This document shows, piece by piece, positions 5,222-33,152 of a DNA stretch of 33,152 bases. Made by a program: the position numbers and the translations under genes. The notes beneath the pieces are model-generated. The model was not told the origin of the DNA, made no database searches, and saw nothing but the letters and a program-made list of their open reading frames with translations. The stretch is from IMG/VR virus record IMGVR_UViG_3300030427_000041, positions 1 to 33,152 of that record. One strand, 5' to 3'. This DNA comes from a virus. Each line of letters starts with the position of its first letter. Positions within the stretch are counted from its first letter, which is position 1.

Positions 5222-6177
5222 GCCGCATCCTCGATCAGATAGCCGGTGGCCGGAGCCGCGATGACTTCGCGGACCTGCTCGCCTACGCGGAGCGTGGTGG
5301 AACCTTTGAGGCCGACCTTGGGGTCAAAGAAGCGCCCCGAGACGCGCCCGTCGAACTGCGCCGTCCAGCCCCATGCGGGGGCGGTGCCGTCCGGACCGGC
5401 CTGAGTGTTGCGATGGATCAGGGCGATATTGCCGCCCCAGACCTTCTCGAAGGCAGCCGTCTGACCCTTGCGGGCCGAGTTGATATAGCTGTCGCCCACG
5501 AGGATCTGAGAGAGTTCGAAAAGCTCCGCCACCGCCTCGCGGCCGGCGCGGCCCTTGTCGCCCGAGGTCCGGTTGATGGCCTTCAGGATATCGGGATGGG
5601 TCGAGAGCGCCGTCCAGGCCTTACGCCCCATCGCGGCCACGTTGGGGCGCATGATGAAGGTGGCATCAAGGGCGGCAGAGATCACGCCGATGGGATCGGA
5701 CGTGGGATCGCTGAACTGGCCCGCGCCCGAGAGCACCACTTTTTTGTCCGCGTCATAGTTGGCCGCGTCCTGCACCATGGCGGCCACGCGCTTTTCGCGG
5801 TCGAGCTGGATCAGATGGGCCAGACCCTCGACGGCGCGCGCCTCGGGATCGAAAGCCGAATTGCCAGCGGCGCGCAGGGCGCGGGCGGCATCGATGTCGC
5901 GCTGCGGCACCACGTCGTCGAGACCGTAGTCCTTGACCGAAGAGGTGCGCTCTTCGCCGGTGAACTCAACCTGTTGGACCAGACCTTTGCGGCCGACTTC
6001 CGTGTCGGGCACCGTGAACATCTGCTCAGGCGGGAAATAGGTCCATTTGAAATCCGTAGCCATGACCGGCACGCGCGGCATGACCTCGTCGGCAATGAAC
6101 GAGATGTCGGGGTTGCGGAAATTGACGGCGATGGCGGTCAGGACCGGATCGACGACAAAGGGGGTGGGGGTGCTCAT
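5218..6177 (-). CDS. Major capsid protein, 319 aa
   Basis: The product starts MSTPTPFVVDPVLTAIAVNF and contains NPDISFIADEVMPRVPVMA, DTEVGRKGLVQQVEFTGEER and later NVAAMGRKAWTALSTHPDIL and KVWGGNIALIHR. This combination is that of HK97-fold major capsid proteins found in Mu-like prophages of Rhodobacteraceae. The gene directly follows the decoration/stabilisation protein and the protease-scaffold gene, completing a capsid assembly module. The initiating ATG is preceded by GGAGCGC. No cleavage site can be assigned by eye. Confidence 0.88.
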   Translation of the reverse strand: MSTPTPFVVDPVLTAIAVNFRNPDISFIADEVMPRVPVMATDFKWTYFPPEQMFTVPDTEVGRKGLVQQVEFTGEERTSSVKDYGLDDVVPQRDIDAARALRAAGNSAFDPEARAVEGLAHLIQLDREKRVAAMVQDAANYDADKKVVLSGAGQFSDPTSDPIGVISAALDATFIMRPNVAAMGRKAWTALSTHPDILKAINRTSGDKGRAGREAVAELFELSQILVGDSYINSARKGQTAAFEKVWGGNIALIHRNTQAGPDGTAPAWGWTAQFDGRVSGRFFDPKVGLKGSTTLRVGEQVREVIAAPATGYLIEDAA

Positions 6178-6196
6178 GGATCAGCGCTCCTAAAGA

Positions 6197-6562
6197 TCAG
6201 GTGACAGAGTGACGGGCGATGGCCACGTCGATGATGTCGCCAGCGACGCCCGCCTGCAGCGCGTAGCCGATGGCGATGTTTCCGGCTCCGGCCACTGCGG
6301 CCACACCGAGGCCCGAGGCGTTCGAGGCGACGGGCGCACCTGCGGCGACTGTGCCCGCGAGCTTGAGCTCTCCGGAGCCGGACATGATCACGTCCGCTGT
6401 CTGGCCAATGGCCGCATCCAGTTGGTCCGAGATGCCAATCGCGAGATTGGTCGCGGAGGCGGCCACAAGGATGCCGCCGCCCGCGCCGAATTTGACGATC
6501 CGGCGGCCGGGCACCGCCGCCTCGGCGGTGTAGGATTTGATGAACATACCGGGATTAGGCAT
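6197..6562 (-). CDS. Head decoration-type protein (DUF2190-like), 121 aa
   Basis: Start chosen at ATG 6560-6562, giving MPNPGMFIKSYTAEAAVPGR; a longer frame would run into the protease gene in another reading frame. The sequence is Ala/Gly/Val-rich and beta-rich, with RRIVKFGAGGG and LAIGISDQLDAAIGQTADVI, a pattern seen in small DUF2190-type capsid decoration or stabilisation proteins. It overlaps the protease stop by eight bases and precedes the major capsid gene, the expected position. Confidence 0.75.
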   Translation of the reverse strand: MPNPGMFIKSYTAEAAVPGRRIVKFGAGGGILVAASATNLAIGISDQLDAAIGQTADVIMSGSGELKLAGTVAAGAPVASNASGLGVAAVAGAGNIAIGYALQAGVAGDIIDVAIARHSVT

Positions 6563-7640: not shown

Positions 7641-7938
7641 GCGACCGACACTAGGCCGGGCGCGGGTGCCATATCAGATGAAGGGCTTCAGGGGAGGCGA
7701 GGTTTTGGCAGGGTCCCCTTGTGGCCACACTATCCGCCCAACCGGGCATCCGGCAAGGCCGGAATGCCAAGAGGCCCTGAGAGGCCCCCAGAATGGCCTC
7801 CCCCCTGACGGCGGGGGAAGGTGGCCCGCAGGGCCGAGGGGGGTATTCAATGGGTATTTAATGGCGCTCTGACGGGGTATTCCGTGGCGCGGCCTCGGTT
7901 GCAGGTGCGCTCGCAAGGCCAATTTGCCCGAAATCGCC
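7641..7938. other. 298-base non-coding gap with three consecutive hairpins
   Basis: No convincing gene lies here. Three inverted repeats follow each other: GGCATCCGGC/GCCGGAATGCC with loop AAG and one bulge (7745-7768); CCCCC/GGGGG with a seven-base loop extended by CCT/AGG (about 7797-7820); and GGCCC-GCA-GGGCC (7823-7835). Directly beside them is a copy of the dispersed TTnAAnrCCCC motif (7838-7861). It is the largest gap in the late operon, between the minor head genes and the capsid module. It could be an attenuator, RNA processing site or module boundary. Confidence 0.5.
7838..7861 (-). repeat. Dispersed tandem motif, copy G
   Basis: The minus strand reads TTAAATACCC, then ATTGAATACCCCCC. 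It is the most diverged of the copies but keeps two TTnAA-n-r-CCC units about 13 bases apart. Confidence 0.45.
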
Positions 7939-8160
7939 TCAGGAGGCCGGATCGACAAGGAATGCGCGCAGGATCGCACGGCGCTCTTCGGGCGTCCTCT
8001 TAGGGCGGTCGAAATACCCAAACAGATCTTCGCGGCGGACCGCGACCAGCTCTTCCTTGTCCGGATCGTCGTCAGGCAATGCTTCCGCTTCGCGCAATGC
8101 GGCCTCATAAGCCTCGCGGCTCCATTCGTCGGGCGGCTCAACCAGCAACGTTCGCATCAC
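7939..8160 (-). CDS. Small acidic hypothetical protein, 73 aa
   Basis: The start ATG overlaps the stop of the head morphogenesis gene by ATGA, supporting translation. The product (MMRTLLVEPPDEWSREAYEA, ending RRAILRAFLVDPAS) is strongly charged and probably helical, with EDLFGYFDRPKRTPEERRAI. No family is recognised. It ends the minor head operon segment just before a structured non-coding gap, so it could be an accessory gene. Confidence 0.6.
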   Translation of the reverse strand: MMRTLLVEPPDEWSREAYEAALREAEALPDDDPDKEELVAVRREDLFGYFDRPKRTPEERRAILRAFLVDPAS

Positions 8161-19924: not shown

Positions 19925-20451
19925 GCCGCACCGCCTTTCGCCGGGCTGAAATCGCCCGTGTTGGGATCAAGGATGCCCGCCAATCGCACGGGCTTGGGGG
20001 CACGTGGGCCAGTATCCTCGATTATCTGGTAGAGCGCCTCACGACGGCCGGGGATGGCCGTCTGGCGTACCTTCAGGTGGTTGGAGGCCAGTAGCTGGCG
20101 GCAATAGGCACGGGCCTTCTCGACAGTGACCTCGACGCCCCCGGCATTGGCATGGGCCGCCACATCGGTCGGGTTGAAATGGCGCAGATGGCGCATGGCC
20201 CGCCACATGTTGCCCTCGGGCGTGGCCTCGCCTGTAACCGGCTGTGGGCCGGGCTGGGGCATATGGGCCGGGGCATACCAGCGCTTGCCATTACGCGCGA
20301 TCCGCGTCACGCGGATCTGGCCTGCGTCCATCCAGTGGCGGATATAGCGGACGGCGGTCTCGCGGCTGCACCCGCGCCGGGCCACCTCGGCCCAGTCGAA
20401 CTCCTCGAGGCCTTTCACCTCTGCCCACATCTGCGCAAAGAGGTCGCTCAT
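19921..20451 (-). CDS. Early phage protein with winged-helix-like segments, 176 aa
   Basis: The protein has DLFAQMWAEVKGLEEFDWAE followed by SRETAVRYIRHWMDAGQIRV, which looks like an HTH, and a second one around VEVTVEKARAYCRQLLASNH. The end contains GILDPNTGDFSPAKGGAA. The fold is probably two winged helices. It lies directly downstream of the MuB-like ATPase with ATGA overlap. No named family is assigned. Confidence 0.65.
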   Translation of the reverse strand: MSDLFAQMWAEVKGLEEFDWAEVARRGCSRETAVRYIRHWMDAGQIRVTRIARNGKRWYAPAHMPQPGPQPVTGEATPEGNMWRAMRHLRHFNPTDVAAHANAGGVEVTVEKARAYCRQLLASNHLKVRQTAIPGRREALYQIIEDTGPRAPKPVRLAGILDPNTGDFSPAKGGAA

Positions 20452-21245
20452 GCGCGCACCGCCTTTCCGCCCGGCCCAAGCGGCACGACCGTATCCGGAC
20501 CACGCGCCGCCGCCGGGCGGAAATCATCGACGCGACGTACTGCCGGAGGCTGGCCTGTCTCGAAGACCCGGTTGCCCCATAGATCAAGATCCGCCAACCG
20601 GCGACCCCGCCCGTGGGCGAGTTCCTTGGCACGTGCGAGGTTGATCGCCACGCGACGGATCGAGCCGCCCGAGGCGTCAACGATGGAGGTCAGAAGATCG
20701 TCCGCGACGTCGATGCCGGCCGCATAGATCGAGGCCAGCTTCTGCGCGTCGCTGATATTGCAGGCAAGAGCGGGCTCCCATGCAAGTTGCCGGTTGTGAA
20801 TGTTCTCCCAGCGGGTCAAATCCTGCGGCAACTTTTCCTCACCGACCAGAATAATCGGGGCCTGACTGCTCTCGTAGATGTCGCGGGCAAGCTCGATCAT
20901 CCGCTTGCGCAGGAGATATTGCGCGTCATCGATGATGAGCGGCCGGTCGGTCCGGGCGAGCTGCGCGCCGATGGCGTCCACCATCGCGGGCACGCCGCGC
21001 ACCGGCGTAAGGCCAATCTCCCGCAAAACTGCCTGCGCGAAATACGTCGGTGTCCAGCAGTCTTTGACCTGGACAACATGGGCCTGATACTCGTTGGCCG
21101 CGACCGTCACGGCGGTAGTCTTGCCCCAGCCGGAGGGGCCGTAGAACGTGGCCATGCCGGGCAGACCAAAGGCGCGGGTCTGAACTCGTTCGACCAGGCC
21201 AATCAGCGCCGCGACATTCCGCAGGGGCGCAATAGAGGGTGTCAT
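20448..21245 (-). CDS. MuB-like AAA+ ATPase, transposition target activator, 265 aa
   Basis: Walker A is GPSGWGKTT (36-44), Walker B PLIIDDAQYL (102-111), followed by a sensor-type ILVGEE. The context immediately after the MuA-like transposase, and the ExeA/TniB-type layout, identify the MuB role: ATP-dependent DNA binding, target capture and activation of the transposase. A clean ribosome site (AAGGAGAG) lies in the 18-base gap upstream. It lacks the N-terminal HTH of Mu MuB, and is shorter than Mu MuB (about 310 aa). Confidence 0.88.
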   Translation of the reverse strand: MTPSIAPLRNVAALIGLVERVQTRAFGLPGMATFYGPSGWGKTTAVTVAANEYQAHVVQVKDCWTPTYFAQAVLREIGLTPVRGVPAMVDAIGAQLARTDRPLIIDDAQYLLRKRMIELARDIYESSQAPIILVGEEKLPQDLTRWENIHNRQLAWEPALACNISDAQKLASIYAAGIDVADDLLTSIVDASGGSIRRVAINLARAKELAHGRGRRLADLDLWGNRVFETGQPPAVRRVDDFRPAAARGPDTVVPLGPGGKAVRA

Positions 21246-21263: not shown

Positions 21264-23390
21264 TTATTCTTGGGTGCCAAAGAGACGCGCCATGCGTAGT
21301 TTGGCGCGATAGTCTGAACTCTGCTGATAGTCGGCCAGCCAGTCGGCCTGCGCCTGTGTCAGCGCCTCTCCGTCCGCCTGTGCGCGCTCAAGGACGCGGG
21401 CGCGGGCGAACATGATTTCGGGATCGTCGTCGGCGGGCTCGGCGGGCCGCACGCGGTGCTCCTCAAGCCGCATCACGCGGGCCTCGATCTCGGCCAGATG
21501 CTCGACCTCCTCGGCACTTTGAGCGCGCCGACGCCGCTTGGGTGCGGCGGCGTGCGGCGTCACCAGCTGATGAACTTGCGCTTCTGGCAAGGGTTCACTG
21601 GCTGCGAGGCCAGAGGCCGCACGCACCCGCGCTGCCACCTCGGCTGCCGTCAACTCGCGCGCAGCCTTGGCCTCGGCCTTCTGTGCCTTCGCCCACGCCC
21701 CGCGCTTGCGCGCATGGTCGCGTGCGGCTTCGACGTCGATGAATTTGGCGGCCTCGAGACAGGCGGCATGGCCCAAATAGCGGCCCGTGAGATCATAGAC
21801 CTCGAGCCCGGCTCCCAAATCATCCGCGTCGAACCGCGCAACCACCTTTTCGCCTGCGATCCGGTACATCCACTCTGACCAGTATTCCGTGTCATAGAGC
21901 TTCAGCGCGCCGTTTCCGGTCTTGGCCCGCACGCCCTCGGCGCGCAGGAGCCACATGCGCAGCTGTTCGTCCGTCGCGCGCTTGACTGTCGCCTTGGCAT
22001 AGCCCGCGTTGAACACCTCATTGAACGAGCGTCCCATGGCCACTTCACTGCGCCGCCCGGGCCGGGCGTTGTGATGCTCGAGCTCATCCTCCAATACGAG
22101 GCGGAACTCGTCGAGCGGGACGGCGCGGGAGCCATAGTCCTCCGGTTTGGCTTCCGGTCTGTTGCCGGTATAGGCCCCGTCAAAGGCCGGGTGCTTGGCC
22201 ACCCGGTCGCAGAGATCGCGAAACGCGCGCTCGATGGGCTTGGATTGCCCCGAATAGGGCGTGGCCCAATGGATTTCGACACCTAGGAGCGGAAGGAGGC
22301 CGGGGATATCTTCGTCGGTGATCTTGAACCGAAACCGGGTCGGCGTGCCGCCCGTCATCGCCTTGGCGGCGAATTCCCGGCCGTTGTCGATCAGAACCGA
22401 CTGCGGGATGCCATAGGTCCGGATCAGATCGCCGGTCACCAGCTGCACGGTGTGGCTGTTGGCCGTCGGGGATAGTCGCCACGCCAAGAGTTTGCCGGAA
22501 TAGACGTCCGACCAGACCATCATCTGCGGGCGCACGGGCTTGTCGTAGCCGGGCCAGTCCACGAAGACGTCGAACTTGTGATAGTCGCCCTGCACGCATT
22601 CGAGCGGGGTCATGAATGCCTTGCTGCGGACCTGCGCGGGATAGAGGCGGCGCAATGCCTCTTCGCCCCTGCGCAAGTAGATTTCAGTGGGGGCCGATAC
22701 GCTGGACTTGAGCCAGCGCCGCACCTGATGCAGCGGCGGCACGACACTGTTGCGTCGCTCGGACGTCCAGACGCGCACTGCACGGTCATAGCAGCTTGTG
22801 AGAGAGGGCTGGGACGGGCGCAGCCAGTCACTGCGCACGAGCGCCAGAAAGGCCGGGTCTGTATCCAGTCGGGATCCTTGTGCCCGCCGCAACGCCCGCC
22901 CGTCGATCAGATAGGCCAGCCGGTCGGCGCGTGCGACGCCCTCGATGTGCGAGAGATAATTCCAGAGCGATTTCTCGGCGCGTCCCGACTTGCGTGCGAC
23001 CTCCCGCACCGCCGCCGACCGTGTCAGCCCGGCCCCTTCCAGTAACTCGACCTCGGCGATGGCTGCCAGCCGCGCCTCGGCTTCAGCGCGGGCCTTGTCA
23101 CCCGCCGCCGCATATCGATCCCATGCCGCGTCTTGCCCCTGCTGAACGGGTGCGGTTTTGACCAGGCTGGAACTTAGCCGCATGCGGGCGCGCAATGGCA
23201 GAACGCTCCAGTGATATTCGATGCCGCCGCCTACCCCCTTGCGCCGCCGGGCCTTCCCCGCGTGTCGCGCCCAGCCATCACGCTGTGCCAGTTCGTTGAT
23301 CTTGCGCTTTGTGCTCGGGAGATCCGGAAGCCCGGCCTCCGCCAGCTCTGCCGCGCTCCACCATTCCTGCGCAGGGGCCGGGCCTGTCAT
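21264..23390 (-). CDS. MuA-like DDE transposase, 708 aa
   Basis: N-terminal residues 9-60 form the Mu-type winged helix (EWWSAAELAEAGLPDLPSTK). Further helical DNA-binding domains follow, then an RNase H-like core: ECVQGDYHKFDVFVDW (D269), QSVLIDNGREFA (D335), and SKPIERAFRDL (E387), giving the DDE triad. A Mu C-terminal beta domain follows, then a charged tail that should contact MuB. It performs integration and replicative transposition, recognising end sites such as those at 27158-27343. Confidence 0.95.
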   Translation of the reverse strand: MTGPAPAQEWWSAAELAEAGLPDLPSTKRKINELAQRDGWARHAGKARRRKGVGGGIEYHWSVLPLRARMRLSSSLVKTAPVQQGQDAAWDRYAAAGDKARAEAEARLAAIAEVELLEGAGLTRSAAVREVARKSGRAEKSLWNYLSHIEGVARADRLAYLIDGRALRRAQGSRLDTDPAFLALVRSDWLRPSQPSLTSCYDRAVRVWTSERRNSVVPPLHQVRRWLKSSVSAPTEIYLRRGEEALRRLYPAQVRSKAFMTPLECVQGDYHKFDVFVDWPGYDKPVRPQMMVWSDVYSGKLLAWRLSPTANSHTVQLVTGDLIRTYGIPQSVLIDNGREFAAKAMTGGTPTRFRFKITDEDIPGLLPLLGVEIHWATPYSGQSKPIERAFRDLCDRVAKHPAFDGAYTGNRPEAKPEDYGSRAVPLDEFRLVLEDELEHHNARPGRRSEVAMGRSFNEVFNAGYAKATVKRATDEQLRMWLLRAEGVRAKTGNGALKLYDTEYWSEWMYRIAGEKVVARFDADDLGAGLEVYDLTGRYLGHAACLEAAKFIDVEAARDHARKRGAWAKAQKAEAKAARELTAAEVAARVRAASGLAASEPLPEAQVHQLVTPHAAAPKRRRRAQSAEEVEHLAEIEARVMRLEEHRVRPAEPADDDPEIMFARARVLERAQADGEALTQAQADWLADYQQSSDYRAKLRMARLFGTQE

Positions 23391-24259
23391 GCTGCATCCC
23401 CTTGGTCAAGTTCCCCGAACAGCGTCGCAACCTCCGCGCCGCGCTCCTCCAGAAACGCCATGCGCTCGCGCTTGCCCGCGCGGTCCCATGCGTCCAAGAG
23501 GCGTGACAGGGTTGCGTCCTTGGGACTTGCCGGGGCCGGGGCTTCGCCCCGTGCAACACGGTAAGCCTTACGGGCAGCGTTGACTGTCTTTGCCTCCCCG
23601 GAAGAGAGCGCCTTCATGACTTCGCTACGTTCTCCAGGATCAGAAATCTTGCCGATTTCTGCTATATCCTTGTATCCGAGGTATTGGGGTGCCAACTGGA
23701 TTGCACGAACTTCATCCGCCTCCAGAGCCTTCACAGCCCTGATCTGACGCCGAACCGTGCTCTCATCCTGTCCCGTCATTTGCCCGACTTTCACGGCGAA
23801 AGATACGACGGGCATCGTGCCCGTCGTATCCCACCGCTTGGCAACAAGAGCCTCACCAATCGCCGCGCGGGCTTCGGGGTGCTTCTTTTCGTACGCCTCT
23901 TTGTACTCCAGCAGAAAGACCGCGCGATCTATCGGCTTCATCTCAGCACGGGCCAGATTGCGCTCGATCTCCATAAGGCGGGCATCGGCGTCCGTCCCGT
24001 CGTAGACAGACGCAAGGATCGTGACGTTCCCGAGCCGCTTTGCGACCTCAATCCGATGCGCGCCGTCAATAAGGCGATAGACTACGGTGCCTTTGCGTCG
24101 TACGCGGCGCACATCAATCGGATCGGTGGTAGAGCCACCTTCGTCGATTGTCATGAGGATGGCCGAGATACCAACCTCGTCTACAGGACGCAGCCGGTCC
24201 TCTATGACGATTTCAGCAACAGCCATCTCCCGTGTCTCGATCAGGCGCATTTCACTCAT
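23387..24259 (-). CDS. ParB/RepB-like nuclease-domain protein, 290 aa
   Basis: The ParB N-terminal fold is visible: IVIEDRLRPVDEVGISAILM, TTDPIDVRRV, RLIDGAHRIEVAKRLG (D65-G-A-H-R) and MEIERNLARAEMKPIDRAVF, followed by an HTH region KVGQMTGQDESTVRRQIRAV. ParB-like proteins with an HTH are frequent in the early operons of Mu-like phages; they probably bind DNA and CTP. Overlaps the transposase start by four bases, implying coupled expression. Confidence 0.85.
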   Translation of the reverse strand: MSEMRLIETREMAVAEIVIEDRLRPVDEVGISAILMTIDEGGSTTDPIDVRRVRRKGTVVYRLIDGAHRIEVAKRLGNVTILASVYDGTDADARLMEIERNLARAEMKPIDRAVFLLEYKEAYEKKHPEARAAIGEALVAKRWDTTGTMPVVSFAVKVGQMTGQDESTVRRQIRAVKALEADEVRAIQLAPQYLGYKDIAEIGKISDPGERSEVMKALSSGEAKTVNAARKAYRVARGEAPAPASPKDATLSRLLDAWDRAGKRERMAFLEERGAEVATLFGELDQGDAA

Positions 24260-27487: not shown

Positions 27488-28555
27488 CTAATTTTCAACG
27501 CGCTCCAACGGGCGAACCTGTGTGCGAAACTCATGAGCGGTGACTGCAACGCTAGCGACACTAAAAACGGATACTCGTATGCAATTTGCCGCTTCGGTAT
27601 CGAAGAGGGCCAAGTTCTTTCCCGTCCCCACAGAACTCGTATAAAGTACACCGTCAAATCCTTTTTTCTTTATAAACTCGCAGAGATATTGACTTGGAAC
27701 GTAGTCAGTTGCGGCGCTGCGGGGCAGCACCGGACGAGTGAGTTCGTGGCCCAGACTTTCTAGGAACGGCAAGTCTGCCCTAAGCTGAACAATCTCATCG
27801 GAAGATCCACAGATAAAAGGAGAGACGAGTGTCTTAGGTGATCGTAAATCGACGATTGTAAGTCCTTCACGCAGCTCAAATTCTGCAACGGTCGCGAATT
27901 CACCCGTATGAGGGCGTATTTCCGAAATCGCTGTGTTCTCATCAGATGCAAGATAGAGATACGGAATGCCTGCGGGGTTGGCTCTTCCGTGGGAAGCGGA
28001 ACCTTTTGGTGGCGCTCCCATCGATTGGGCATCGAAAGGCTGATTATCAGGCGAGATCCTGGCTCGAAACCAGATCTTTTCTAGCGGTGCTGAAAGCAAG
28101 AACTCGAGCAAAAGCTTCAACCGTTCTTCCTTAATTTTTTCGTCTAGAAAATACCTATTCTTGAAGCGAAGTTCTTGACGAAGTTCAAGCCAATCACCGA
28201 CCTTAGAGTCATCCGGCGCGGTCAAGGGTCTAAACGACTTTCGAACGATCTCTCCATCATCTAAAATATCGGAAAGTAGTTCTTTGGCGTGTGCTTCGTC
28301 CATTTTGGCATGAGAGAAAAGCCCCCAGTCCTTTTTGAAGTTTGCCACAAGACTTACACCGCCTTCAGCTTCTTCATAAGATTCGACTAGCAGCTCAAAA
28401 ACATCAGAAAGCTCCGACGGTTCAACAAGTTTGTCCGAAGGGTCTCCGCAATAATTACAATCCCCTTTCGCCAATTCTGTAGCCAGAAATTGAAACAGGT
28501 GTTTTTCGAGTCCACGGTCCCCAAAACAGTTTGGGCAGCATTTATTTGGCATCAA
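27488..28555 (-). CDS. RES-domain protein with N-terminal zinc-ribbon/HEPN-RES-type region, 355 aa
   Basis: N-terminal cysteines C7-x2-C10 and C33-x2-C36 (CNYCGD) form a zinc ribbon. A helical middle region of about 100 residues is like the HEPN/RES N-terminal domain. The RES domain covers about 160-345 with WFRARIS (R164), PAGIPYLYLASDENTAISEI (E212), and DGVLYTSSVGTGKNLALFD (S307/S308), matching the R, E, S residues that name the family. Known RES toxins (Xre-RES modules) split NAD+. The start overlaps the sce7725-like stop by ATGA, so it is the last gene of a three-gene operon. It is AT-richer than the flanking phages. Enzymatic role as NAD+-depleting effector is inference. Confidence 0.8.
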   Translation of the reverse strand: MMPNKCCPNCFGDRGLEKHLFQFLATELAKGDCNYCGDPSDKLVEPSELSDVFELLVESYEEAEGGVSLVANFKKDWGLFSHAKMDEAHAKELLSDILDDGEIVRKSFRPLTAPDDSKVGDWLELRQELRFKNRYFLDEKIKEERLKLLLEFLLSAPLEKIWFRARISPDNQPFDAQSMGAPPKGSASHGRANPAGIPYLYLASDENTAISEIRPHTGEFATVAEFELREGLTIVDLRSPKTLVSPFICGSSDEIVQLRADLPFLESLGHELTRPVLPRSAATDYVPSQYLCEFIKKKGFDGVLYTSSVGTGKNLALFDTEAANCIRVSVFSVASVAVTAHEFRTQVRPLERVEN

Positions 28556-29499
28556 TTCGCCTCAGAAAAATAGTCTGCCAGTGTCTCAATGTGATGGATC
28601 ATCGAAAGTTTTTTAACCTGACCCAGCCCTGGAAAGTGTTGTTTTGCATGCAACTCTAGGAACTCAGATAAAGCCTTACCATGAAACAGGTTTGATGTTC
28701 CGTGATTGAACTTCGTGACCAGCTTAGAGAGCGCTTCTGCGAACTTTCCAGCAGGATCCGTTGGAGTGCTATTTGAATCTGACACAAAATGGCGCACGTA
28801 CATCTGATCGTCTTTGTCTGGATCAATGAACGTCATGTGAATGGCGACGGCATAAGCAGGTCCACCTGTCTCACTATAGTCATCCCCGACAGTTAGGAAG
28901 TCTCCAAAACCATTCAAACCCAACTCGGAATTAAATGTTACATGCAAATCTGAAAAAAGCTCAACAGCAGGATAACTAGCATTCCGCTGTTTGTTGAATC
29001 CATCCCGAAGCAGCACTCGAGAAGCACTGCTGAACTTCTTTCGGTATAATACAGGGCTAGCCTGTTCGATGAAGACATGTCGTGTATGACTGAGCTCGTC
29101 CCCAAGTTTTTCTGCGAGGCCGTTTTCCTGCAGAAAGCCCGAGTGAATAAAATACGGCCTATGATTTGTATGAGCTTCAAAAAGCGTCATGGCATCTATT
29201 ACCGTCATCGTATCCGTCAATAAGATGCCAGCGCTTACGTTGTCGGTCTCAAGATAGCCTTCCTTGAGAAAAGTCGATATTGCGGCTCCATTTCCAGCTA
29301 AGCTTCCATGTTGAGGATTCACTATTACGATCGCATGCCCACCGCTTTCACAAACCGCGTCAAGCGCACGGGTCAACCCCTTCAGTGCTTCTTTTACGGG
29401 TTCAATTATGGGTATGAAACCAGCCTTCGCCAGCAATTCTGCGGTATCTCGAATAGTGATGAGCTCAAATTGCTTACCGCGAAAGTATGGAAAGTACAT
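28552..29499 (-). CDS. sce7725 family (beta-family) protein, 315 aa
   Basis: The protein begins MYFPYFRGKQFELITIRDTA, followed by IIEPVKEALKGLTRALDAVC, VIVNPQHGSLAG and GILLTDTMTVIDAMTLFEAH. This opening (Y-x-P-x-x-R-G-K-Q-F-E-L-x-A-I/T), the I-I-E-P-V-K block and the V-N-P-x-x-G strand are the sce7725 type of beta-family proteins, which are often encoded beside sce7726 proteins. A TIM-barrel-like alternation of helices and strands is likely. Function is unknown. It lies eight bases after the sce7726-like gene. Confidence 0.82.
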   Translation of the reverse strand: MYFPYFRGKQFELITIRDTAELLAKAGFIPIIEPVKEALKGLTRALDAVCESGGHAIVIVNPQHGSLAGNGAAISTFLKEGYLETDNVSAGILLTDTMTVIDAMTLFEAHTNHRPYFIHSGFLQENGLAEKLGDELSHTRHVFIEQASPVLYRKKFSSASRVLLRDGFNKQRNASYPAVELFSDLHVTFNSELGLNGFGDFLTVGDDYSETGGPAYAVAIHMTFIDPDKDDQMYVRHFVSDSNSTPTDPAGKFAEALSKLVTKFNHGTSNLFHGKALSEFLELHAKQHFPGLGQVKKLSMIHHIETLADYFSEAN

Positions 29500-29507
29500 T
29501 TAACATC

Positions 29508-30404
29508 CTAACTCCAAAATATTGATTGTTCGATTGGAGTTTTAATGGCTTGCACCAGTTTTGCCCCGTCACTTAGCCTTAAGTTGTACATCAATGCGGC
29601 GGCATGCAACGATAAAGGTAGATCTTCGACGAGTCTCTGGAAAGAATGTTGTGTTCGGCTCTGCCTGAGCACCTGAACCATTGCGTCATGGACTTCTCTT
29701 GGATCAAGGCGTTCGTAGAGTTCTGAAAGCGCGCTAAACATCTGAGTGTTTGGCACGGAAGGTACAGGCTTGCCTATGTGTTTGAGAATACGAATTGCCT
29801 CAGTTCTTCGAAGAGCCCCCAGAATGCTGAGTGGTTTAACTTCGTCTGGCCGATCGACGGCTTCTCTAACTGTGCTTATGCTATTCCATCTTTTCAGATA
29901 CATAACGCCTACGTGAAGCGGCGCGAGCTCTTTTATCGCGTTGATGTGACGTTCTGAAGCAATTACATACGTACGAGCAAATATATCGGCGTAGTCTTCT
30001 AGTTGTTTCTCAAGTCTCTGGAGACTGTCACGTTCGGATTTAACCTCATAGACTGTAGATGTGCCGTTCAATATGACAACATCCGCTCTGCTAGCTCCAG
30101 TTCGAAACTCTCTCACCATACTGGCTGTTTTCAGGGAATGTTTACCTAAGAGCACGTTTTGAACTATAGCCGACTGATAAATGTATTCATTTCGGAGGCC
30201 ACTTCGGCGTAATTGAGCGAAGCCAAAGTCAAACGCGTCACCGACGGTGCGAACTTCTTGAAGTTCGAATAGTTCAGCTTGATTTACCAACGAGCTAAAC
30301 TTGGCAGAGCTGCCTTTTTCAGCAAGTTCTCTAACAACGCCGGCCGAAAAAAGGCGAGCAATCGCCGCATCCTTGTGGTGGTCGCGAGTTCTATCTGTGT
30401 ACAT
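29508..30404 (-). CDS. sce7726 family PD-(D/E)XK nuclease-like protein, 298 aa
   Basis: The N-terminal half includes DRTRDHHKDAAIARLFSAGV and MVREFRTGASRADVVILNGT followed by STVYEVKSERDSLQRLEKQL. D108, E120 and K122 make a D-x11-E-x-K motif with the preceding S-R-x-D strand, the core of PD-(D/E)XK folds. This is the sce7726 family. A helical C-terminal part follows. It is the first gene of the operon and probably supplies nucleic acid sensing or cleavage (inference). The region is AT-rich relative to the phages, consistent with lateral transfer. Confidence 0.82.
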   Translation of the reverse strand: MYTDRTRDHHKDAAIARLFSAGVVRELAEKGSSAKFSSLVNQAELFELQEVRTVGDAFDFGFAQLRRSGLRNEYIYQSAIVQNVLLGKHSLKTASMVREFRTGASRADVVILNGTSTVYEVKSERDSLQRLEKQLEDYADIFARTYVIASERHINAIKELAPLHVGVMYLKRWNSISTVREAVDRPDEVKPLSILGALRRTEAIRILKHIGKPVPSVPNTQMFSALSELYERLDPREVHDAMVQVLRQSRTQHSFQRLVEDLPLSLHAAALMYNLRLSDGAKLVQAIKTPIEQSIFWS

Positions 30405-30706
30405 TGGTCGAATTCGCCGCTGCCTTTTCGGGGGACCCTAAACCAAATTTGACCGTTGCACATCAGAAAAACGTCGCGACTGATTGCTCATCAAGTCCAA
30501 GTCGAGGGCCAATCGCTGGCCCAACACGAAGGCATAAGAGATTGGCCAAATGAATATCCGCCTAGAAACTATGGTTTTCAGGCCTCGCACCCATAGCGAA
30601 CTTCCGCTTTCCGCCCTTCCTGCTCGTGCTGCGTCGGCTAGCTGGGAGTTTGATCTCGATCGGCTACCGCCTGACACCGATCATTGGGAAGGAACATGAG
30701 GGGCTG
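30405..30706. other. Non-coding region upstream of the defence-like cassette
   Basis: The 302 bases have base composition between the cassette and the phage. A minus-strand frame of 79 codons (30438-30677) is present but shows no protein-like pattern or ribosome site. The promoter of the three-gene operon should lie near 30405-30470. The phage B right end is probably near 30700, but no transposase-site copies like those at 27158-27343 are seen. Confidence 0.4.
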
Positions 30707-30731
30707 TTTCAACGCCCCTTTAACACCCCCC
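30707..30731 (+). repeat. Dispersed tandem motif, copy F
   Basis: Plus strand: TTTCAACGCCCC then TTTAACACCCCCC. It abuts the stop codon of the ABC-GNAT gene. It links the right-hand phage segment with prophage A, which carries six other copies. Confidence 0.6.
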
Positions 30732-31841
30732 TCACTCGACATACCGAAAGCCCTGCACCGCGCGGAAATGCCCGCCGTAGCCGCTCCCGGCGGGTTTGAG
30801 GCCTTTGCGTGCCCGGGCGGCGGCGAGGGTCTTCATGCTGCGTTCCTTGGCCTCGGCATAGAGGATGGCCGAAACCTGTGCCCAGAGGGGATCGCGGCGC
30901 AGGGCGGCGGCGAGGCCGGGATGCGAGGTGTGAAACAGCATCGGCATCGGTTTGTCGTAGCGGTTCACGCCGCGCCGCCAGAGCGCGCAAACCTCGTTGA
31001 GAAAGCGCAGCCCCAGCCCCGCGCCCTGCCACTCAGGCATGACGACAAGGCGGCAGGCGCGGCCTTCGACCAGCCCCGGCCGGGTCGAGACGGCCAGATG
31101 CGCCACCGGTGCGCCGTCGACGAAGCCCACGTAGTAATTGGCCGCGATCATGCGGGGCAGCTTCAGGTAGTGATGCGGCTCAAAGGCGGGCCAGAAGGAG
31201 CCGTCTGTCTGGTGAATGTCCATGGCAATGCGGGGTGCCCGTCGAAGACGCCTCCAGCGAAACTCGGCCCGGCGGGTGTCGATCACCCAATCGGGCTGCA
31301 ACCAGGACACGACGTCCTCGTGACAGGTGACGGCGACGAACTGGCCAGAGCCCCGCCGCCATGCCTTGGCAAAGGCTGCCGCCCCGATCTGGGCCACGCG
31401 CCGGTCAATGGTCGAGGTGAACTCGTCGAGAATGGCAAAGCTCGGCCGCTCGGCCAGAATGCGCGCGAGCTCGGCCCGGAACTGCTCGCCGGTGGAGAGG
31501 TGGGGATAGGGGCGCAGCCAGCTGGGCACCGTGCCGAGGCCCACGGCGGAGAGGGCGGCCGCGACGGCGTCGAATTCGCCCTCGGGGTCAATCGCGTCGA
31601 TCAGCGCGCCCTCGGGCCACGGGCGCGGGTCAAGCTCCGCTCCGAAGGCTTCGCGGGCGAGCGAGGATTTCCCGCTGCCAGAGGGGCCGACGATGAGGCC
31701 TATCTGCCAGGGCTGTGCTGCCAGATCGGCCTCGACCTCGATGCGGAAATCCGCGTCGCCCTCGACGTTGAAGAGGCTGGAGACCCGGGCGGCGCGGTAG
31801 GTATCCGGGATGGGGCTGGCGTGGTGGATGGCGAGCTTCAT
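30732..31841 (-). CDS. ABC ATPase-GNAT fusion in mom position, putative DNA-modification enzyme, 369 aa
   Basis: Start chosen at ATG 31839-31841 (MKLAIHHASPIPDTYRAARV), overlapping the upstream stop by ATGA. Domain 1 (about 20-200) is an ABC ATPase: Walker A GPSGSGKS (52-59), signature LSTGEQ (115-120), Walker B FAILDE (135-140), H-loop H174. Domain 2 (about 210-369) is GNAT-like, with YVGFVDGAPVAHLAVSTRPG and VVMPEWQGAGLGLRFLNEV (Q262-G-A-G-L-G). Mu Mom is itself a GNAT-fold enzyme that modifies adenine, and its activator gene com lies upstream, as here. I infer a Mom-like anti-restriction modification system with an added ATPase. Substrate is unknown. Confidence 0.75.
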   Translation of the reverse strand: MKLAIHHASPIPDTYRAARVSSLFNVEGDADFRIEVEADLAAQPWQIGLIVGPSGSGKSSLAREAFGAELDPRPWPEGALIDAIDPEGEFDAVAAALSAVGLGTVPSWLRPYPHLSTGEQFRAELARILAERPSFAILDEFTSTIDRRVAQIGAAAFAKAWRRGSGQFVAVTCHEDVVSWLQPDWVIDTRRAEFRWRRLRRAPRIAMDIHQTDGSFWPAFEPHHYLKLPRMIAANYYVGFVDGAPVAHLAVSTRPGLVEGRACRLVVMPEWQGAGLGLRFLNEVCALWRRGVNRYDKPMPMLFHTSHPGLAAALRRDPLWAQVSAILYAEAKERSMKTLAAARARKGLKPAGSGYGGHFRAVQGFRYVE

Positions 31842-32044
31842 GTGACCACCACGCGGCATTTGAAGCCTTGGCGGCGCAACCGGCCGAAGGCGTTGATTTG
31901 AGCCACCTCGTCCTCGAGGAGGACGATGACGCCATATTGCCGCCGGTAGCGGACGCCTTTGGGCAGGCCCGGCGCACCGGGCGGCAGCTCAGGTTTCGGG
32001 AGTGTGGTCGATCTGGTCAAGTTTGGCTCCTTCTCTCTGCGCAT
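31838..32044 (-). CDS. Small protein between com and the ABC-GNAT gene, 68 aa
   Basis: The protein reads MRREKEPNLTRSTTLPKPEL, PPGAPGLPKGVRYRRQYGVI and VLLEDEVAQINAFGRLRRQG, ending FKCRVVVT. Its start overlaps the com-like gene by 56 bases; a later TTG start is possible. The stop overlaps the next start by ATGA, so it is co-translated with the ABC-GNAT protein. No family recognised; its conservation of a compact beta-helix-beta half suggests a partner of the ABC-GNAT protein. Confidence 0.6.
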   Translation of the reverse strand: MRREKEPNLTRSTTLPKPELPPGAPGLPKGVRYRRQYGVIVLLEDEVAQINAFGRLRRQGFKCRVVVT

Positions 32045-32207
32045 CGCGCGTTTGGGGAAGGGCTCTTGGCCTCAGGATATTCATCGCCCGGCAGCGCGGG
32101 CATTTGATCGAGACGCCGGATATTTGCGCCCCTCTCTGATATTTAAATAGCAAACGGCTGCATGCGCAGCAACGCAGTTCTAGACCTTCCAAATCGAATC
32201 GCCTCAT
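31989..32207 (-). CDS. com: Com-like zinc-finger regulator, 72 aa
   Basis: Start chosen at ATG 32205-32207: MRRFDLEGLELRCCACSRLL, FKYQRGAQISGVSIKCPRCR and AMNILRPRA. The C-x-A-C-x-R-L-L-F-K ... I-K-C-P-R-C ... N block is the Com family hallmark, a zinc-finger RNA-binding activator. In Mu, Com binds the com-mom mRNA and allows mom translation. Here it precedes the ABC-GNAT gene. A large hairpin lies just upstream (32280-32321). Confidence 0.82.
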   Translation of the reverse strand: MRRFDLEGLELRCCACSRLLFKYQRGAQISGVSIKCPRCRAMNILRPRALPQTRDAQREGAKLDQIDHTPET

Positions 32208-32209
32208 AG

Positions 32210-32378
32210 TCCCGCCGCCCCCTTGGGGCAGGGAGCGGCCATGAGGTGTTTCTGGTCGGCGGGGGTATGTTTGGTGACTGGCCCCGCGTGCCCGGGCGTG
32301 CCCTCCAGCACGCTCGGGGCCTCCTGTAGGGCGGCCGCTCACGGCCACCGGGTAATCCCCACACATTGGGGGATGTCT
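32210..32378 (-). promoter_or_regulatory. com leader/intergenic region with two hairpins
   Basis: No gene is seen. Directly after the tail gene stop, ATCCCC and GGGGAT (32355-32374) form a six-base hairpin that could end the tail transcript, though the U-tract is weak. Further on, a 12-base stem with a two-base bulge is formed by 32280-32291 (GGCCCCGCGTGC) and 32308-32321 (GCACG-ct-CGGGGCC). In Mu, com-mom has its own regulated promoter here; I cannot assign hexamers. Confidence 0.5.
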
Positions 32379-32672
32379 TCAGATCGACCGGGCGACTGTC
32401 AGGCGCGCCGCATAGGTTTCCGTCTTGCCGCCTTTCGAGGCGCGCAGCTGGACCTCGTAGAGCCCCGCCGCAAATGTCTCCGCAGGCCAGAACACGCGCA
32501 CCACGCCGGCCATGCCGTCCAGGACACTCACCCCCAAGGGGATGGTGGGGCCAGCGCCGAGCGCCCATGCCTCTACAGCGGCCCCGCTGAGATCGGGCGC
32601 GGTGCTGTCCTTCCTGAGAAAGGTGATGACGGCGGAATAGGTGTTTTTCTCGAAGGTCTTCATCTCGTCCAT
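32379..32672 (-). CDS. Small beta-rich tail-associated protein, 97 aa
   Basis: The ATG at 32670-32672 overlaps the upstream stop by one base (TGATG), giving MDEMKTFEKNTYSAVITFLR; an ATG 12 bases earlier is less likely. The pattern SAVITFLRKDSTAPDLSGAA ... GVVRVFWPAETFAAGLYEVQ ... TYAARLTVARSI is an Ig-like/BppU-type beta fold found in baseplate or tail fibre accessory proteins. It ends the tail operon before the com region. Confidence 0.65.
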   Translation of the reverse strand: MDEMKTFEKNTYSAVITFLRKDSTAPDLSGAAVEAWALGAGPTIPLGVSVLDGMAGVVRVFWPAETFAAGLYEVQLRASKGGKTETYAARLTVARSI

Positions 32673-33152
32673 CAGTCTCTCCATTCGGCCACAAAACGTG
32701 GCTCATCCCAAAGAGCGGTAAAGCGTGGTTCATCCCAGAGCGCCGTTGCCCTGAAATCCACCACCCGGCTTGTGTCAGCGGGTGCGGCCTCTGACCCGGA
32801 TGTGCCTCCCGAGACCGCAGACCGGGCCGCGATCAGCGTGGGTTCGGCTGTGAGGCCGGACACACCGCCAGCGTTGGCCGCGCGCAGTGTGACTGCGGCG
32901 GGTATGGCCTCTGCCCCTGACAGCCCTCCTGACGCCGCCGCCTTGACGCTGACATGCACGGCCATGGCCCCGGTGCCAGAGACCCCGCCGCTGGAGGCGC
33001 TGCGCGTCTGCACACGGACCGCCATAGCCTCAGACCCAGATGCGCCTCCTGACGTGGCGCCGCGGCTTGTTTGAGTGCCCGCCTGGGGCAAGGCCTCGGA
33101 TCCCGACGCGCCGCCGCTTGATGCCCCGCGCAGCGCGACCTGCACAGGGGCC
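32672..33152 (-). CDS. Tail protein with 20-residue repeats (5' part outside window)
   Basis: The frame is open to the right edge. Six repeats of 20-22 residues follow the pattern R-x-A-S-S-G-G-x-S-G-s-E-A-(x8), for example RGATSGGASGSEAMAVRVQT and KAAASGGLSGAEAIPAAVTL. The C-terminus repeats ALWDEPRF twice. Repeats suit a beta-solenoid or spacer in a tail fibre or tail tip. Located at the end of a tail operon before com. Function is inferred from position and repeat form. Confidence 0.65.
   Translation of the reverse strand, partial: APVQVALRGASSGGASGSEALPQAGTQTSRGATSGGASGSEAMAVRVQTRSASSGGVSGTGAMAVHVSVKAAASGGLSGAEAIPAAVTLRAANAGGVSGLTAEPTLIAARSAVSGGTSGSEAAPADTSRVVDFRATALWDEPRFTALWDEPRFVAEWRD

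Follow-up and report, generated by a model that had tools for sequence, protein, structure and literature searches.

A com-led right-end cassette of a Mu-like prophage encodes an ABC ATPase-GNAT fusion that may modify phage DNA and appears distinct from Mom

Com of phage Mu is a translational activator, and the locus described here raises the question of what kind of enzyme stands behind a com gene when the enzyme joins an ABC ATPase to a GNAT domain. The locus lies in the window, the whole stretch of 33,152 nucleotides that was analyzed, which is an IMG/VR virus record whose close relatives are Roseovarius prophages; it belongs to a Mu-like phage whose host is a marine bacterium. The initial annotation regarded the locus as a possible Mom-type DNA hypermodification system.

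Three overlapping open reading frames on the minus strand, from 32207 to 30732, make up the locus. The first (31989-32207) encodes a 72-residue zinc-ribbon protein of the Com family, which matches Pfam Zn_ribbon_Com (PF10122; E 3.9e-8, 33.1 bits versus a cut-off of 22.9) as well as phrog_6417 and phrog_13819. The second, a small ORF (31838-32044) with its stop at 31838, yields 68 amino acids from an ATG at 32044 inside com, or 60 from a TTG at 32020 that lies behind AAGGAG and is at least as plausible a start. The third (30732-31841) encodes the ABC-GNAT protein, with 369 amino acids from an ATG at 31841; this start and the preceding stop share the sequence ATGA, an arrangement kept in relatives. 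This frame is also open from an ATG at 31859 (375 amino acids), but the conserved start is the one at 31841; residue numbers below follow the 375-residue frame. Prophages at different insertion sites lose homology to the window at its approximate Mu-like right end (30700-30731, minus strand): blastn alignments with L013, L014, L020, L023 and L026 end at 30700-30715, which places the ABC-GNAT stop codon 17-32 nt from the prophage right end, and the cassette is therefore the last element of the phage. Thus, the operon that had been proposed from the sequence is real, and it has the features of a Mu-type com-led right-end slot, namely Com upstream, the next start inside com, and the cassette last in the phage. 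Mu com-mom likewise has a Com family protein, a com gene overlapping the next gene, and a last gene before the right end, whereas the window has an extra ORF after com, an ATPase module, and an enzyme that is non-homologous to Mom at the family level. The RNA around the start of the small ORF, examined as a candidate Com target, showed no significant excess folding (z -0.48) and so lends no support to Com control at this site.

The third protein combines, as first noted, a complete ABC ATPase with a GNAT-like domain. The ABC half (31239-31841, through residue 207) carries Walker A GPSGSGKS at residues 58-65, the signature LSTGE at 121-125, the Walker B DE pair at 145-146, the D-loop D152 and the H-loop H180, and these key residues (LSxGE in the signature) are invariant in 61 homologues. 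In the GNAT half (30735-31238), the acetyl-CoA pyrophosphate loop QGAGLG spans residues 278-283, with Q278 and G279 present in 61 of 61 homologues and G281 in 60 of 61. The protein thus displays both the Q/R-x-x-G-x-G/A loop and the fold of a GNAT acyl-CoA transferase. It scores above cut-off for ABC_tran and is a full-length member of phrog_11143, a PHROG of unknown function (E 2.3e-131, with the match spanning residues 8-374 and hence both domains). At least 592 viral-contig stretches encode relatives, and together with the phrog_11143 match these indicate that the ORF is not a chance reading frame. When 398 Pseudomonadota genomes were searched with phrog_11143, the results were swamped by ordinary ABC ATPases, and a long match was found in approximately 3 of the 398. 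The AlphaFold2 model (pLDDT 89.8) aligns with ABC ATPases over residues 1-206 and with RimI (2cnm) over residues 212-375 (Z 14.5, rmsd 2.8, 131 residues), although a RimI-like fold by itself would be no proof of function. An unannotated ABC-GNAT protein with 63% identity is also encoded on the conjugative IncP plasmid pKV29 of Delftia, directly before a formyltransferase gene.

The GNAT half was compared with Mom at several levels, and its identification as Mom was rejected. The ABC-GNAT protein gave no match to the Pfam Mom family PF25680 up to E 10 and none to the Mom family phrog_1384 in PHROGs up to E 1, whereas Mu Mom itself matches phrog_1384 at 7.8e-84. Profiles built from 61 GNAT halves and from 18 Mom proteins, aligned with hhalign, gave a probability of 0.2% (E 0.26). 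Three motifs that are invariant or near-invariant in the 18 Mom sequences, HYSxRxVNNSY, ELNRMW and FADERCG, are absent from the ABC-GNAT protein, which has an intact acetyl-CoA loop and a RimI-like fold. The sequence profile of the GNAT half did not retrieve the solved Mom structure 8bv8; this structure was also not listed in Foldseek and VIA structure searches, but there ABC chains filled the lists. On these comparisons, the proposal of an ATPase-fused Mom variant is not supported, and membership in the Mom family does not appear to hold, although a very remote common GNAT ancestry is possible.

One guide to function is the gene that follows com in other genomes. Among 395 genomes of the Roseovarius family, Rhodobacteraceae, we examined 12 com loci, in which com is followed by ABC-GNAT in three, a C5 methyltransferase in four, a D12 N6-adenine methyltransferase in four and nothing clear in one, with examples confirmed by Pfam and the remainder assigned from motifs. 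Thirty com loci were found in 398 Pseudomonadota genomes. Here the next gene encodes a D12 enzyme in 17 cases by Pfam and in two more by reading (L186 and L188), a C5 enzyme in two, an N4/N6 enzyme in one, Mom in two and ABC-GNAT in one, such that approximately 24 of the 30 slots hold a DNA-modification enzyme. Among the other loci, L187 lies at a contig end, L203 falls below the cut-off, and L198, one member of the pair L198/L201, is a borderline case whose E value of 1.9e-4 narrowly misses the Pfam cut-off. The slot has exceptions, as com is followed in L180 and L182 by other genes (phrog_31751; HEAT repeats), and Com may control additional proteins. In most loci that were read, the start of the gene after com lies within or at the end of com, as it does in Mu. 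The com-led methyltransferase cassettes of Mu-like prophages (D12, C5 or N4/N6) share their slot with the window but transfer methyl groups, unlike the acyl-CoA-type enzyme found there. Because the slot otherwise holds DNA-modification enzymes, its occupancy supports a role for ABC-GNAT on DNA and is the strongest argument for it, albeit one of guilt by association. Of the initial annotation, the modification cassette led by com is likely, with the position of Mu com-mom and counterparts that mostly carry DNA-modification enzymes, and the Mom variant is not. Judging from sequence, we consider it reasonably likely that the locus is a late, Com-controlled cassette that acylates phage DNA against restriction and is not a relative of Mom.

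A different substrate is conceivable. The likeness of the GNAT half to RimI, which acetylates proteins at the N terminus, allows for a target other than DNA, and ABC-GNAT might acylate a protein or RNA (host RNA polymerase, a ribosomal protein or tRNA) for takeover or counter-defence, having reached the com slot by chance. RimI, an N-alpha acetyltransferase, provides the best alignment of the GNAT half, and phages are known to encode GNATs that act on RNA polymerase (Rac; PMC7824862). However, the enzymes that fill most com slots act on DNA, a ParB-like partner and an ABC ATPase would be unusual for protein acetylation, and the cassette adjoins terminase or tail genes in several phages. We regard a protein or RNA target as somewhat unlikely.

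The product of the small ORF matches phrog_28816 (E 1.2e-8), and this family also matches residues 174-210 of a ParB-like protein of Gordonia phage NHagos (E 1.6e-10). These residues form the C-terminus of the NHagos protein, whose gene precedes ABC-GNAT. Each of the 57 loci whose upstream sequence is long enough encodes a ParB-type tail on the 5′ side of ABC-GNAT, in almost every case directly next to it; the tail profile was trained on the loci counted, and independent support comes from the NHagos match and from a tail-peptide search, in which 21 phage records were matched and all 21 carry ABC-GNAT. The tail occurs fused to ParB in 35 of the 57 loci, as a standalone tail with Com in 15, and with neither in seven. 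The order of com, small ORF and ABC-GNAT, which the initial annotation suggested should be sought in other phages, is thus recurrent. Com and ParB occur together in none of 50 loci (Fisher p 8e-9, a value to be taken only as a guide given that the loci share ancestry). On the ABC-GNAT tree, the Com-associated loci do not form one clade and at least five changes are needed, so ParB and Com have been exchanged more than once. By sequence, then, the small ORF is the C-terminal tail, of approximately 37 residues, of a ParB-like protein from which it has become detached, and not an added partner protein as had been supposed. AlphaFold2 models the tail as a single confident helix (pLDDT 79). We infer that the tail serves to dock on ABC-GNAT, and that Mu-like phages have retained it without the ParB domain.

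Several other loci touch on this tail. The window encodes a second ParB-like protein (23387-24259, minus strand, directly before the Mu transposase gene), which belongs to a different family (phrog_3264, E 8.8e-53), and a profile search for the ABC-GNAT tail on it gave no match. In a Porphyromonas phage (L003), a tail ORF at 7876-8004 is annotated as an 'acr candidate protein'; it appears to be a ParB-type tail and is probably no anti-CRISPR. In Roseovarius mucosus (L025), a second ABC-GNAT copy is interrupted, with the tail and the first part lying approximately 0.9 kb from the remainder.

Relatives of the cassette offer a clue to the acyl donor. Within the closer group of relatives, most have a formyltransferase gene (PF00551, phrog_9240) directly 3′ of ABC-GNAT, for example in Pseudorhodobacter (L024) and in Komp_PAO1_1, an isolated phage of PAO1 that has the full four-gene cassette. 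The window gave no formyltransferase match in a profile search, and the phage ends right after ABC-GNAT, leaving no room for the gene. In a Roseovarius genome (G001), the formyltransferase matches all lie outside the contig that carries the prophage (C1), and these are probably host PurN, Fmt and similar proteins. The profile of the phrog_9240-type formyltransferases matches best the hydrolase domain of 10-formyl-THF dehydrogenase (FDH; E 5e-39), with Fmt next (7e-21). Amine formyltransferases use an Asn two residues before the His, and this Asn is absent in all 48 readable copies of the phage enzyme. In 41 of the 48, an Asp lies 36 residues after the His, as in the FDH triad His106-Ser108-Asp142 (PMC6802093). 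FDH transfers formyl to a phosphopantetheine thiol (PMC8748788), and HypX has been proposed to pass formyl to CoA, a reaction whose direct demonstration is still pending (PMC6802093). The resemblance to FDH, a thiol formylator, is the reason for considering formyl-CoA as a donor, and it suggests that the formyltransferase of the relatives supplies formyl-CoA to the GNAT half, a role that would apply to the relatives and not to the window. A wider reading that takes in the window, as a phage lineage that lacks the donor gene and uses another acyl-CoA, is quite improbable when taken as a whole. In Rhodococcus/Gordonia phage Jace (L032), the formyltransferase position is occupied by gp87 (6089-6514), which is annotated as 'aspartate decarboxylase' and has no match in PHROG; might it be a different tailoring or donor enzyme?

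If the cassette acylates DNA, its operation might be envisaged as follows. By analogy with Mu, Com would open translation of the next ORF, whose start sits inside com, and the overlaps observed suggest that the tail protein and then ABC-GNAT would be made by translational coupling. The tail, a piece of a ParB-like partner found exclusively with ABC-GNAT, would dock on the enzyme. The ABC module may dimerize with ATP on DNA, like Rad50/MutS-type soluble ABC ATPases, and help to present the base, and the GNAT half, given its intact motifs, would move an acyl group from acyl-CoA to an exocyclic amine. The expected product is an N-acylated base, rather than the methylcarbamoyl-adenine of Mom, and this acylated base would protect the phage genome against restriction. 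Where relatives have a formyltransferase gene downstream, formyl-CoA derived from 10-formyl-THF may serve as the donor; because this gene is absent from the window lineage, a host acyl-CoA such as acetyl-CoA would be the simplest donor there. The RNA cytidine acetyltransferases TmcA and NAT10 also combine an ATPase module with a GNAT domain and acetylate the exocyclic amine of a base. However, they are functional analogues only, with a helicase-type rather than an ABC ATPase and an RNA substrate, and NAT10 had no significant match with the GNAT-half sequence profile (E 0.35).

Alternatively, the cassette could be a prophage defence or superinfection-exclusion module and no modifier of virion DNA. 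It is carried by a prophage and occupies a phage end, a usual place for accessory genes, and PADLOC matches the ABC half to mad3 (E 4e-14), but this match is confined to residues 116-194, a generic part of the ABC domain. Control by Com, on the analogy with Mu, points instead to the lytic phase, and no conserved nuclease or toxin partner lies alongside, making a defence role very doubtful. Finally, the view that ABC-GNAT is a diverged form of Mom that has gained an ATPase, producing N6-methylcarbamoyl-adenine like Mu Mom, is scarcely credible in view of the negative family-profile and hhalign comparisons, the failure of the GNAT-half profile to retrieve 8bv8, the missing Mom motifs and the canonical Q-x-x-G-x-G loop, even though both enzymes belong to the GNAT superfamily (Mom according to the literature) and both follow com at the right end of their phages.

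Acylation of DNA by such an enzyme is not a new idea: PMC7824862 cites (as its ref. 136) an earlier prediction in which a GNAT paired with an ABC ATPase places an acyl group of unknown kind on a DNA base. Tenacibaculum phage pT24, an example of the systems so predicted, is a tblastn match of the window protein; the region is annotated as two ORFs in the pT24 record, whereas in the window it is one ORF, under Com and with a standalone ParB tail. More closely related are the cassettes of ParB, ABC-GNAT and formyltransferase in Gordonia Sourvirus and other phages, which have a homologous tail and ABC-GNAT (46-49% identity between the Gordonia phages and the window) but differ in that tail and ParB domain form one protein and a formyltransferase is present. 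In the papers examined other than the original ABC and GNAT prediction (ref. 136 of PMC7824862, which we take to be Iyer et al. 2013), we found no description of the com, ParB or formyltransferase neighbours of ABC-GNAT. The word 'modification' is absent from the Komp_PAO1_1 paper. As far as could be checked, three elements are apparently new: the placement behind com, the ParB tail as a detached protein, and the hypothesis of a formyl donor.

Should ABC-GNAT prove to modify DNA, ATP-dependent acyl chemistry would join the anti-restriction repertoire of phages, and this would suggest for Com a general regulatory role over DNA-modification enzymes that can replace one another, and not that of an accessory of Mom only. 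Moreover, three poorly understood families would acquire testable roles: phrog_11143, phrog_28816 and phrog_9240, the phage 'phosphoribosylglycinamide formyltransferase'.

Some further features of the prophages were observed. The window holds two Mu-like prophages in the same orientation (1-27000 and 30700-33152), in which approximately 3.6 kb separate the left end of one from the right end of its neighbour, and a related 82-kb contig carries two ABC-GNAT copies. The left prophage encodes a MuA transposase (21264-23390), an AAA ATPase that is probably MuB (20448-21245) and a tape measure protein (2-1315). The island between the prophages (27488-30404, minus strand) comprises three genes, for a RES-domain protein and members of the sce7725 and sce7726 families; the sce7726 protein also matches a PADLOC model, and the island could be a defence or toxin module. 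In L014 and L015, 239 bp left over from the right end of another phage (6825-7063), corresponding to the 3′ end of ABC-GNAT (92%), lie 0.7 kb behind an intact ABC-GNAT copy.
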